64,000 nt of DNA, taken from assembly GCF_000518885.1 (NCBI RefSeq), contig NZ_JAEL01000006.1, forward strand, positions 1-64,000, written 5' to 3'. The notes beneath the pieces are model-generated. The model did not search any database, was not told the DNA's origin, and was given only the letters and a program-made list of their open reading frames with translations. Origin of the DNA: Bacillus sp. J33. GTDB lineage: Bacteria > Bacillota > Bacilli > Bacillales > Cytobacillaceae. Shown piece after piece: positions 34,989-38,537 of this stretch (positions are counted from its first letter, which is position 1; each line of letters opens with the position of its first letter). The position numbers and the translations under genes are program-made.

Positions 34989-35013
34989 AAGGGCCGAAAA
35001 AGGCCTTTTTTTA
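34989..35013 (+). terminator. terminator after yppG
   Basis: Short stem AAGGGCC-gaaa-AAGGCCTT followed by TTTTT, just after the stop codon. Confidence 0.65.
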
Positions 35014-35143: not shown

Positions 35144-35172
35144 TTGACAAAATTCAGATAAAAGTGAAAAAT
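35144..35172 (+). promoter_or_regulatory. candidate promoter of the permease-peptidase operon
   Basis: A perfect TTGACA (35144-35149) is followed after 17 bp by AAAAAT, a weak -10 (four of six). The palindrome that follows would lie at the start of the transcript. Confidence 0.4.
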
Positions 35173-35211: not shown

Positions 35212-36075
35212 ATGGTCCGCGCTGTACAGCAGATATTGTTCATATTTATTTTGATCATGATTCTTGCGGCATTGCCAAAGATTGTTTCGGTAGATGCTGC
35301 AGAAGGAGGCTTGAACTGGAATCTGGCCAGCCTGCCTCATATTTATGGAAACTTTATTTCCGAAGTAAGCCGGGGCAGCCTTGGACATTATCAGCTCGGC
35401 AGCCAAACTAGGCCGATAGCCGAGGATATAGGCGATAATTTCTATACAAGCTTAAAAATTGTGTTAATGGGCGTAAATGCAGCTATACTTATAAGCCTCC
35501 TATTTGGTGTGTTTATCAGCAGGTTCCGGCTTACAAAAATCTTTGGGATGATATTAAATGCATTAGCAGTCATTCCTGATTTTATCATTATCATTATATC
35601 TATGATTCTTGCAGTCAAAATCTATAAAGCGACAGGGATCAGAATAATATCGCTTCGTCCGGATGGCGGAGCGCTCAATACATGGTTTCCGACCATGCTT
35701 GTTGCAATTGCCCCTACGTTATATTTGTTTAAACTTGTATCGGTAAAATACTACCAAACAAGCGGGGAAGATTATATTAAGACGGCTGTTGCGAAAGGGA
35801 TGGGACTGAATTATATAAATTTCCAGCATGTATTTAAAAATCTGGAGCCATTTATAAAAGCTGAGCTGGTAAAAGTTATTTCGCTGGCAATCGGAAATCT
35901 TTTTATAATTGAATACATAATGAATGTCTCCGGAATAACCAAGTTTGTATTCCAAAGCCATGAAGTACAGCCTATTGCTATTGGGCTGTTTGCTATGCTT
36001 TTCATTTCCCTTATTGTCTATTTATCAATTAGGCTAATATTCTATCTGTTTAAACGGGGTTTTCTATATGAATAG
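35212..36075 (+). CDS. Dpp/Opp-type ABC transporter permease (DppB-like)
   Basis: A 287-residue inner-membrane permease with about six hydrophobic helices. The cytoplasmic EAA coupling loop is recognisable as EDYIKTAVAKGMGLNYINFQ followed by HVFKN, close to the DppB consensus (YIRTARAKGL...KHALRN). A large N-terminal extracytoplasmic loop (about 30-75) is typical of DppB. It should pair with the DppC-like half of the next gene, which it overlaps by eight bases. No ATPase or substrate-binding protein gene is adjacent, so those must come from elsewhere. GAGGGGGG precedes the ATG. Confidence 0.88.
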   Translation: MVRAVQQILFIFILIMILAALPKIVSVDAAEGGLNWNLASLPHIYGNFISEVSRGSLGHYQLGSQTRPIAEDIGDNFYTSLKIVLMGVNAAILISLLFGVFISRFRLTKIFGMILNALAVIPDFIIIIISMILAVKIYKATGIRIISLRPDGGALNTWFPTMLVAIAPTLYLFKLVSVKYYQTSGEDYIKTAVAKGMGLNYINFQHVFKNLEPFIKAELVKVISLAIGNLFIIEYIMNVSGITKFVFQSHEVQPIAIGLFAMLFISLIVYLSIRLIFYLFKRGFLYE

Positions 36076-38470
36076 GATCCTAAAGATCAATTACTCATTG
36101 TACATTGGGATTTTCATGGTTTTCGTGCTGCTTTTTTTCTGTTTATTTGGTCCAATGCTGGCACCGCATTCATTAACCTCCACACTTGAAACACAATATA
36201 CAAATGGAAAAGTGCTGGCACCGCCGCTGGAACCATTTGATTCGGATTCATACCCTTTAGGCACTGACAAATGGGGCTATGATTTAATGTCAATGATTCT
36301 GAATGGCATTAGGTATACGGTTTTTATCGCGATCGCTGTCACTGTTATTAAAATGTTTTTTGGGACTATAGCAGGACTATATATCGGCACTTGGAAGAGA
36401 ACGCCAGGCTGGATGGTTGCATTCGAAAATGCATGGAGCTATGTCCCGCTGTTTTTGATCCTGTATTTTTTTCTATCGCCCATTAGCTTCAACAGTTCTC
36501 TGGAAACAGGCACTCTCATTGGATACTTTGTTGTAATAGCTTCAGTCATTAGCATTCCCAGCATTGTTTCTTCTGTAAGGCTTAAAACAGCTGAAATATA
36601 TCAATCTGTATATATTGATGCTTCAAAGGCACTTGGTGCAAGGAGACATCGCCTTATATGGAAGCATATCTTCCCTCAGCTGAAGGAAACTTTTCTGGTC
36701 ATGTTTATTCTTGAGATTGTATATGTAATAGCTATTATGGGGCAGCTTGCGCTTATGAATATTTTTTTGGGCGGCACCATAATGAGGTACGACCCGATTA
36801 TTTATCTTTCTGCAACAAAGGAGGTGGCAGGGCTTGTTGGCCAGGCAAGAGGCAATATATACGGCAATACCCATATACTGATTGTTCCGTTGATAGTCCT
36901 TTTATTTACCACAGCATCCTTTAGCCTGCTTGCCAATGGGCTGAAAAATCGCTTTCATTCCAATTATCAGCGTACACCATGGATTAAGACCGGGCATGAG
37001 CCCAAGGTGCAGCCAGCAAGGAAAATTTTGGGGGAGAATAGAAGGTTTTGGTCCTTTTCCGGACCAAAAATCGCTTTCTTTGCTCTAATAATCGCTTTTG
37101 CAGCTGCCGGAATTTATGTAACAATTACGGATGACGCTGATGTTGGTGTTCAAAGCGGCAGCCAGGCTGAATATAGTATTAATCTTGAAATGGATGGGAA
37201 TGGCATCTTTTCAGCTGTTGCCGATATTCAAATAAAGAATAAATCTGCTGAGGAATGGGATGAACTGGTATTTTATTTTATTCCTAATGTCTTTAAAGAA
37301 GGGCATGGAATCGAGTCAGTTAAAGGATTCTCTGATACCGAAATTAAACAAGTGATTTTGAATGGTCATAAAGCGGAGTTTATATTGGATTATGATACAT
37401 TAACAATCCCGGTAAGCCCTGAAATGTCAGATAAAACAAAGCACAAGGTTACTATTGAATATAGCTTTACAGTGCCTGAGAAGGGAAGCCGCTTCTCCAA
37501 GGTAGGGACGAATTACTATCTAGCACAGTGGTACCCTATGGCAGCGGTCTATCAAGGCGGAAAGTGGAACAAAGAACCTTATATGGATGGAATGGAGACC
37601 TTCCACACAGGATTCTCCGACTATAAGATTTCGTATCATCTTCCTGAAGGATATTCACTTATTTCTACAGCCGAAAAGGATCCTGGCAATAATGAAGGCA
37701 CCTTAAAAGCTAAGAAAGTCAGGGATTTTTTCATTGCAGTCGTAAAAGGGATGGAAGTTCATGAAACGGAAGCCAGGGAAGGTGTGAATATTAGGCTGTT
37801 CACGAAGGCCGATCATGACAAAGCCCCGGCTGACTCCCTTGAACTCGCCAGAAAGGCACTGTCATTCTATCAGGAGAATATTGGTGAATATCCTCATAAG
37901 CAGCTTGATATTGTCCTTGATGAGGGCCAATTTATGGAATATCCAGGAATCGTAACCATTAATCCATATATTGAGGATAAGCGATTTTATGAAATCTCCA
38001 TCGTACATGAAATAGCACACCAATATTTTTATGGAGTGGTGGCCAATGATCCTTATAATCATGCATGGGTTGATGAAGGGATGACGGAGTTTGCGACTTC
38101 CATGTACTTTTATGCAGGTGAAAATCAGACTGAATCTCAAGCTTTTGGAATCTCCCGTTACCGTATGGAAGCAATTGAGGAAAAAGGCTTTGGAAAGCAG
38201 TATTCCAATGTACCGCTTGATGAGGTTAAACATTCCGGTTATATATATGGGCAGCCAGCCCTGGAAATCCATAAGATGATCCAGGATAAATATAGGCAAA
38301 AAGGGGATACACCAAAAGAAGTGGCAATGCAGTATTTATCCGATTATTTTCTGAATTTCCGTTATAAAGAGGTAGACACGGAGGAGTTTATAAAATTCAC
38401 AAAAGATTATTTCAGTGTTCCAACAGGCTACTTCAATAGGTGGCTGGATACTTCTAATGATAACAGCTAA
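36068..38470 (+). CDS. DppC-like ABC permease fused to M1 metallopeptidase
   Basis: An 800-residue fusion. Residues 1-300 form a DppC-type permease: N-terminal helix (12-30), the LGTDKWGYDLMSMILNG motif at 64-80 (DppC usually LGTDxxGRDxLSRLLxG), and an EAA loop YIDASKALGARRHRLIWKH at 182-200. A further transmembrane helix at about 333-352 should carry the chain outside. Residues 365-790 resemble an M1 aminopeptidase: beta domain, a GxMEN-like FMEYPG at 622-627 and the gluzincin zinc site HEIAH (647-651) with Glu670 in WVDEGMTEFA, exactly the HExxH-x18-E spacing. All catalytic residues are intact. The reading frame is continuous. Confidence 0.9.
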   Translation: MNRILKINYSLYIGIFMVFVLLFFCLFGPMLAPHSLTSTLETQYTNGKVLAPPLEPFDSDSYPLGTDKWGYDLMSMILNGIRYTVFIAIAVTVIKMFFGTIAGLYIGTWKRTPGWMVAFENAWSYVPLFLILYFFLSPISFNSSLETGTLIGYFVVIASVISIPSIVSSVRLKTAEIYQSVYIDASKALGARRHRLIWKHIFPQLKETFLVMFILEIVYVIAIMGQLALMNIFLGGTIMRYDPIIYLSATKEVAGLVGQARGNIYGNTHILIVPLIVLLFTTASFSLLANGLKNRFHSNYQRTPWIKTGHEPKVQPARKILGENRRFWSFSGPKIAFFALIIAFAAAGIYVTITDDADVGVQSGSQAEYSINLEMDGNGIFSAVADIQIKNKSAEEWDELVFYFIPNVFKEGHGIESVKGFSDTEIKQVILNGHKAEFILDYDTLTIPVSPEMSDKTKHKVTIEYSFTVPEKGSRFSKVGTNYYLAQWYPMAAVYQGGKWNKEPYMDGMETFHTGFSDYKISYHLPEGYSLISTAEKDPGNNEGTLKAKKVRDFFIAVVKGMEVHETEAREGVNIRLFTKADHDKAPADSLELARKALSFYQENIGEYPHKQLDIVLDEGQFMEYPGIVTINPYIEDKRFYEISIVHEIAHQYFYGVVANDPYNHAWVDEGMTEFATSMYFYAGENQTESQAFGISRYRMEAIEEKGFGKQYSNVPLDEVKHSGYIYGQPALEIHKMIQDKYRQKGDTPKEVAMQYLSDYFLNFRYKEVDTEEFIKFTKDYFSVPTGYFNRWLDTSNDNS

Positions 38471-38500: not shown

Positions 38501-38537
38501 ACAAAAACAAGCAGGATTTTATTCTGCTTGTTTTTGT
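38501..38537. terminator. bidirectional terminator after the fusion gene
   Basis: Stem ACAAAAACAAGCAG / CTGCTTGTTTTTGT with a nine-base loop, between the permease operon and the convergent hsp20 gene. Confidence 0.9.

Follow-up and report, generated by a model that had tools for sequence, protein, structure and literature searches.

What is an M1 metallopeptidase doing on a subunit of a Dpp/Opp-type permease? This question is raised by two overlapping genes of Bacillus sp. J33, found in the 64,000-nucleotide window analysed here (the whole stretch, from contig NZ_JAEL01000006.1, to which all unprefixed coordinates refer, read on the forward strand). Our results show that these genes encode a permease pair of the Dpp/Opp type, in which an M1 peptidase is fused to the DppC-like subunit. 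The fusion gene (36068..38470, +) is a single open frame of 800 codons, as a preliminary description of this DNA had proposed, and coordinates, frame and Pfam domains all agree with a DppC-like permease joined to an M1 domain. Pfam places BPD_transp_1 at residues 97–295 (E 1.8e-9; 38.0 bits, cut-off 26.4) and Peptidase_M1 at residues 591–729 (E 3.9e-7; 30.3 bits, cut-off 27.7); the N-terminal domain OppC_N scores 22.2 bits, just under its cut-off of 23.9. AlphaFold gave one confident model for the whole protein (mean predicted local distance difference test score, pLDDT, 88.6; predicted template modelling score, pTM, 0.82), the permease part having the DppC fold and the peptidase part the M1 fold. 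From its N-terminus, the protein comprises a DppC-type transmembrane domain of six helices (residues 1–300; 36068..36967, +), a basic, flexible linker that is predicted to be cytoplasmic from its charge (residues 301–331, pLDDT ~54; 36968..37060, +), a seventh transmembrane helix (37061..37138, +) and an M1 metallopeptidase of two domains, predicted to be extracytoplasmic (residues 361–796; 37148..38455, +). Helix 7 is supported by charge analysis and spans residues 332–357 in the model, close to the 333–352 at which an extra helix had been suspected. No ABC-2 family was found for the 800-residue protein in a Pfam scan with E up to 1, and none of the named NCBIfam equivalogs of Opp, Dpp, Nik and Gsi permeases was reached, the best score of the fusion being 67.3 against a cut-off of 350 (Opp4C).

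The partner of the fusion is a dppB-like permease gene (35212..36075, +), whose 287-residue product contains BPD_transp_1 above the Pfam cut-off (E 5.9e-9) and scores at best 44.1 against a cut-off of 350 (Opp2B) among the NCBIfam equivalogs. A homologue lies directly upstream of all 51 fusions that we collected. The overlap of eight bases noticed in the window recurs in 50 of them and is 5 bp in the remaining one.

A frameshift or an assembly error had been named as what would undo the fusion. This origin is ruled out by the existence of 51 distinct fusions together with purifying selection, the ratio of non-synonymous to synonymous substitution rates (dN/dS) never reaching 0.3 for either half in any computable pair. 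By the Nei-Gojobori method, applied to 15 chosen pairs, dN/dS was 0.04–0.19 in the permease half (14 computable pairs) and 0.085–0.28 in the M1 half; one value was saturated for each half. Among 193 genomes of the host's family, 86 gave a match (E up to 1e-30) and 50 a full-length alignment, with 51 copies by manual count; the copy of genome G056 is broken by a stop. Within the host's genus, 32 of 36 genomes carry a full-length copy, and the other four have two copies without M1, one split copy and one remnant. At one locus of this genus (L100:5640-8902) permease and M1 lie in separate frames, as a pseudogene or an assembly error. Homologues of yppG and hsp20 flank 45 of the 51 fusions within 4 kb; the copy at L089 has hsp20 and mrfA homologues as flanks, without yppG, those at L055, L061, L093 and L102 are placed elsewhere, and that at L118 is on a short contig. 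This synteny and the G+C content of the block (0.37–0.43), which resembles that of its neighbours, argue against a recent foreign insertion, and the block, described before as interrupting the B. subtilis order between yppG and mrfAB, does not look like a recent interruption. A search of 72,556 plasmid records gave no match that covered 80% of the query.

Is the peptidase likely to be active? The zinc site HExxH-x18-E (His647, Glu648, His651 and Glu670; 38006..38077, +) lies exactly where it had been located, whereas the exopeptidase motif, described before as GxMEN-like, actually reads FMEYPG: the Met-Glu of GAMEN is kept and its Asn is replaced by Tyr (Met623-Glu624-Tyr625; 37934..37942, +). 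Tyr727 (38246..38248, +) stands at the position of the M1 catalytic tyrosine. In the alignment of fusions all eight residues, from Met623 to Tyr727, are invariant in 43 of 51. The copy at L010 keeps the zinc site and is truncated by a stop near residue 712. In the other seven the M1 domain is degenerate, and Tyr727 is missing from all of them; four belong to the host's genus (L089–L092) and three to other genera of the family (L055, L061 and L118), L055 having kept the zinc site, with the Met of MEY changed to His. As a separate observation, one genome has M1-like proteins of 562 and 629 residues encoded in tandem (L086:6726-10327), with no HExxH by pattern.

On which side of the membrane does the peptidase lie? 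The DppC fold has a cytoplasmic C-terminus. Averaged over the 51 fusions, the stretch between helices 6 and 7 holds 8.0 Lys+Arg and 1.4 Asp+Glu, and that after helix 7 holds 4.8 and 5.5 respectively; Lys+Arg are more numerous before than after helix 7 in 49 of 51. Because of this charge pattern and the orientation of the DppC fold, the M1 domain is very probably extracytoplasmic. A lipobox is present, by pattern, in 13 of 24 stand-alone M1 relatives of up to 545 residues. In the model, helix 7 and the first M1 strand are seven residues apart, and the enzyme should therefore be near the membrane. The preliminary description had put the peptidase outside, at the mouth of the channel. The first part of this claim is supported by the charges and the second is not, since helix 7 is attached through some 31 flexible residues and its packing site around the permease is not fixed by the model.

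Transport would require an ATPase, and Dpp/Opp-type importers use ATPases of the OppD/F type. The coupling (EAA) loops, reported as intact in the DppC part, have invariant motif positions in both subunits. In the DppC part (residues 181–213; 36608..36706, +), L189, G190, A191, R195, W198, P203, Q204, K206 and E207 are identical in 51 of 51 fusions, and the mean majority share of the loop is 0.81, against 0.80 for the whole transmembrane domain. In the DppB-like subunit (residues 186–219; 35767..35868, +), T191, K195, G196 and N210 are identical in all 71 partners of fusions and M1-less relatives. The statement that no ATPase or binding protein is encoded nearby holds for the window, where a motif search of frames of at least 90 residues (the window as a whole was not scanned with hidden Markov models) found neither a Walker A with an ABC signature nor a lipobox. 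It fails for some relatives. In genus g18, the orthologous pair of five genomes (L096, L097/L219, L102/L220, L106 and L107) follows genes that, by order and size, resemble those for a substrate-binding protein (SBP) and for B, C, D and F subunits; Pfam identifies B, C, D and F on L102 and the SBP on L107. The gap between opp genes and pair is 124–264 bp in four of these genomes. OppD and OppF of L102, the only locus in which this was measured, are 88% identical to those of the host on contig C120, and the host genome codes for 10 oligo_HPY ATPases and 8 SBP_bac_5 binding proteins. Two published reports provide precedents for a shared ABC motor, in Borrelia (PMC5736914) and with MsmX of B. subtilis (PMC12632257). 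The borrowing of ATPases suggested earlier is plausible, and our data moderately favour OppD/OppF as the source of energy for the pair. An apparent ATPase gene next to the copy at L160, in family f42, was discarded, Pfam finding instead rhodanese/AAA_18 and AIR synthase-related proteins.

The history of the fusion was approached through a tree of residues 1–335 (74 rows, five paralogues as outgroup; L065, L100 and L010 left out). Permeases without helix 7 lie at its base, and the next branch holds four rows that have helix 7 but lack M1, from Pontibacillus and the rest of its family, f37, and from one f10 genome. All fusions in the tree fall within one clade of 59 rows, restricted to the host's family (branch 100/99), and both groups with a degenerate M1 adjoin a member that lacks it (99/95 and 99/97). 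One member, L060 of C. gottheilii, continues for about 45 residues beyond helix 7, and these start like M1 linker sequence. Several inner branches of the tree are weak, and the program gave a warning about long branches. With this reservation, the tree suggests a permease pair that predates the M1 domain, a helix 7 that came first or together with M1, and a single gain of M1 followed by repeated decay or loss. The Pontibacillus clade may reflect the loss of an older M1.

We propose, and would put the chances at about even, that the pair is a peptide importer of the Dpp/Opp type, powered by OppDF, with a tethered M1 exopeptidase that trims peptides at its entrance. The DppB-like and DppC-like subunits would form the import channel, and helix 7 would keep the two-domain M1 aminopeptidase on the outside of the membrane, where it would shorten peptides arriving at the surface from their N-terminus. 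The trimmed products would then enter through the same complex, with energy from ATPases encoded elsewhere, most likely the OppD and OppF of contig C120, where the host has an opp operon. A coupling of trimming to uptake is plausible. Since M1 appears to have decayed or been lost repeatedly, the peptidase would be an accessory, and the permease would have a job of its own for which trimming is optional, as expected of a nutritional accessory. Several observations weigh against the proposal. Within the clade of 59 rows, nine members lack M1 and seven have a degenerate one, and the permease persists in them; trimming would therefore be dispensable for some of the work of the pair. M1 is retained by only one of the five opp-linked pairs of genus g18, and this pair lies about 1.4 kb from oppF. 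These five pairs form a single clade (100/100), and the linkage would thus reflect one event, later kept. Moreover, no binding protein, by lipobox motif, accompanies the pair in the window.

The lack of a binding protein gene beside the pair is also the starting point of the main rival, which we regard as unlikely: the M1 domain would mainly be a peptide-binding receptor that replaces the binding protein, capturing peptides at the entrance and passing them to the channel, with cleavage secondary. Seven of 51 fusions keep the M1 region after losing catalytic residues, three degenerate pairs compared still have M1 dN/dS values of 0.11, 0.22 (with dS near saturation) and 0.28, and the binding-domain fusions of the OpuA type offer a parallel. 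However, binding alone does not demand that every catalytic residue be kept in 43 of 51 fusions, and the position of each degenerate group beside an M1-less relative looks more like decay than like a change of function. A combination of the two ideas, a peptidase-gated importer in which M1 replaces the binding protein and the capture or cleavage of the N-terminus delivers substrate to a DppBC channel running on shared OppDF, seems to us similarly doubtful. Opp systems import signalling peptides in Gram-positive bacteria, and the M1 domain might mature or destroy a specific extracellular peptide, a signal or an inhibitor, that the permease imports or senses, a role that the preliminary description had given as its second option. 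We consider this improbable, as no constant extra partner was seen among the yppG/hsp20 flanks of 45 of 51 fusions (short peptide-precursor genes were not searched for).

Two further explanations concern the permease itself. It might no longer transport and merely hold a surface-digesting peptidase, as could be argued from a window without an ATPase by motif and from similar stand-alone M1 proteins in several families of the order. Against such a scaffold, which we hold to be very improbable, the coupling loop is as conserved as the transmembrane domain, with its motif positions invariant, the permease survives the loss of M1 in nine rows of the fusion clade, and its dN/dS is low. Alternatively, another ATPase might power the pair, or the pair might export instead of importing. 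The opp linkage is limited to one clade, the second-copy locus L093 has an ABC-2 permease gene and an ABC ATPase gene nearby, and FtsX-M1 proteins of the same order adjoin an ABC ATPase gene; nevertheless, both the fold and the loops match importers of the Dpp/Opp type, with their OppD/F-like ATPases, and this explanation is to our mind the least probable of all. If our proposal of a trimming importer is correct, a catalytic domain on its outer face would let a single complex both digest peptides and take them up. Within the family, the same permease occurs naturally with an intact peptidase, with an inactivated one and with none, so that the contribution of the enzyme can be directly tested, and the link to OppDF makes the sharing of peptide-transport motors in Bacilli a testable question.

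A terminator-like hairpin lies behind the upstream yppG-like gene (34989..35008, +), weak by itself, with two such sites in the region against 3.1 +/- 2.0 in shuffled sequences, and a promoter-like site, TTGACA-17-AAAAAT (10/12), precedes the dppB-like gene (35144..35172, +), such sites being no more frequent than by chance (12 against 13.4 +/- 3.7). A strong hairpin with a T-rich arm downstream of the fusion (38501..38537, +; z-score -4.8 over a 93-nucleotide stretch) is a probable terminator. A two-component system beside outlying copies, guessed from gene lengths, was rejected: Pfam found TrkH and a response regulator at L055 and a histidine kinase at L159, with no common partner. In several Cytobacillus and a Bacillus infantis genome, another DppBC-like pair directly precedes mrfA on the opposite strand (L041:11867-13683, L043:12028-13911, L054:11081-12915); it is not found at the corresponding place in the window. 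Further paralogous DppBC-like pairs, of 30–37% identity and with no ATPase next door by motif, were seen at L079:6928-8725, L083:6366-8178 and L125:6849-8623, that of L083 having a phosphoglucomutase gene upstream.

Has such a fusion arisen more than once? Among evenly drawn samples of 397 genomes of the order (E up to 1e-40) and 398 of the phylum (E up to 1e-25), the full domain order was found beyond the host's family only in G226, a member of another family of the order; two candidates were scored per genome, and rare or diverged fusions could therefore escape. The DppC-M1 protein of G226 (L164:5697-9284, 1195 residues) has a DppB partner (pair L164:4741-9284), a helix at residues 357–375 and an M1 domain with HExxH-x18-E, as the window fusion has, and differs from it in a tail of 315 residues without relatives in the set compared. 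Its gene lies between that of an MrfA-type helicase and a homologue of the gene following mrfA in Cytobacillus. It is apparently an independent fusion, because the closest relatives of its permease are two orphan permeases in the same genome (35–37%; next 33%) and those of its M1 domain are stand-alone enzymes (up to 42%, against 36% to the window fusion), the position of this domain in the M1 tree being weakly supported. Moreover, FtsX-type permeases of 1380–1527 residues with a C-terminal M1 domain and an adjacent ABC ATPase gene occur at five loci (L163:3289-8561, L165:3838-9074, L235:3146-8036, L236:5977-10820 and L237:3246-8077); Pfam confirms FtsX and M1 on L163, L235 and L236, and the ATPase on L163 and L235. 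It seems that different ABC permeases of Bacilli have acquired related M1 domains on three occasions; if true, this would make substrate trimming at the transporter a general strategy.

How does the pair compare with known systems? A peptidase on a Dpp/Opp-type permease appears to be new, no description having been found among the titles and abstract starts listed by searches of an open-licence library, and each half belongs to a known family. With respect to E. coli DppBCDF and the Gram-positive Opp systems, the window pair adds a helix and a fused peptidase, has no ATPase or binding protein in its unit, and is far under every NCBIfam Opp/Dpp/Nik equivalog cut-off. Its M1 part shares the N-terminal beta domain and the catalytic domain, with HExxH-x18-E and the Glu of the exopeptidase motif, with the two-domain M1 enzyme of Deinococcus radiodurans (6a8z/6ifg) and the first two domains of tricorn factor F3 (1z1w), and differs in being tethered to an ABC permease and in having MEY instead of MEN. 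As in the window M1, no further C-terminal domain is present in the Deinococcus enzyme, according to one report (PMC10000809). With the FtsX-M1 proteins, and with the ABC-2 permease/M1 aminopeptidase fusions that exist in other bacteria, the window fusion has in common an M1 domain on an ABC permease, but those permeases are of other folds and, in the FtsX-M1 case, the ATPase gene lies alongside. OpuA permeases are present in the VIA list for the permease part (these lists cover one domain each). In OpuA an extra helix joins an extracytoplasmic binding domain to a type I ABC permease; the window fusion likewise carries an extracytoplasmic domain, as predicted, on a type I permease via an extra helix, but here the fused domain is an M1 peptidase instead of a substrate-binding domain, and the ATPase would come from outside the unit.
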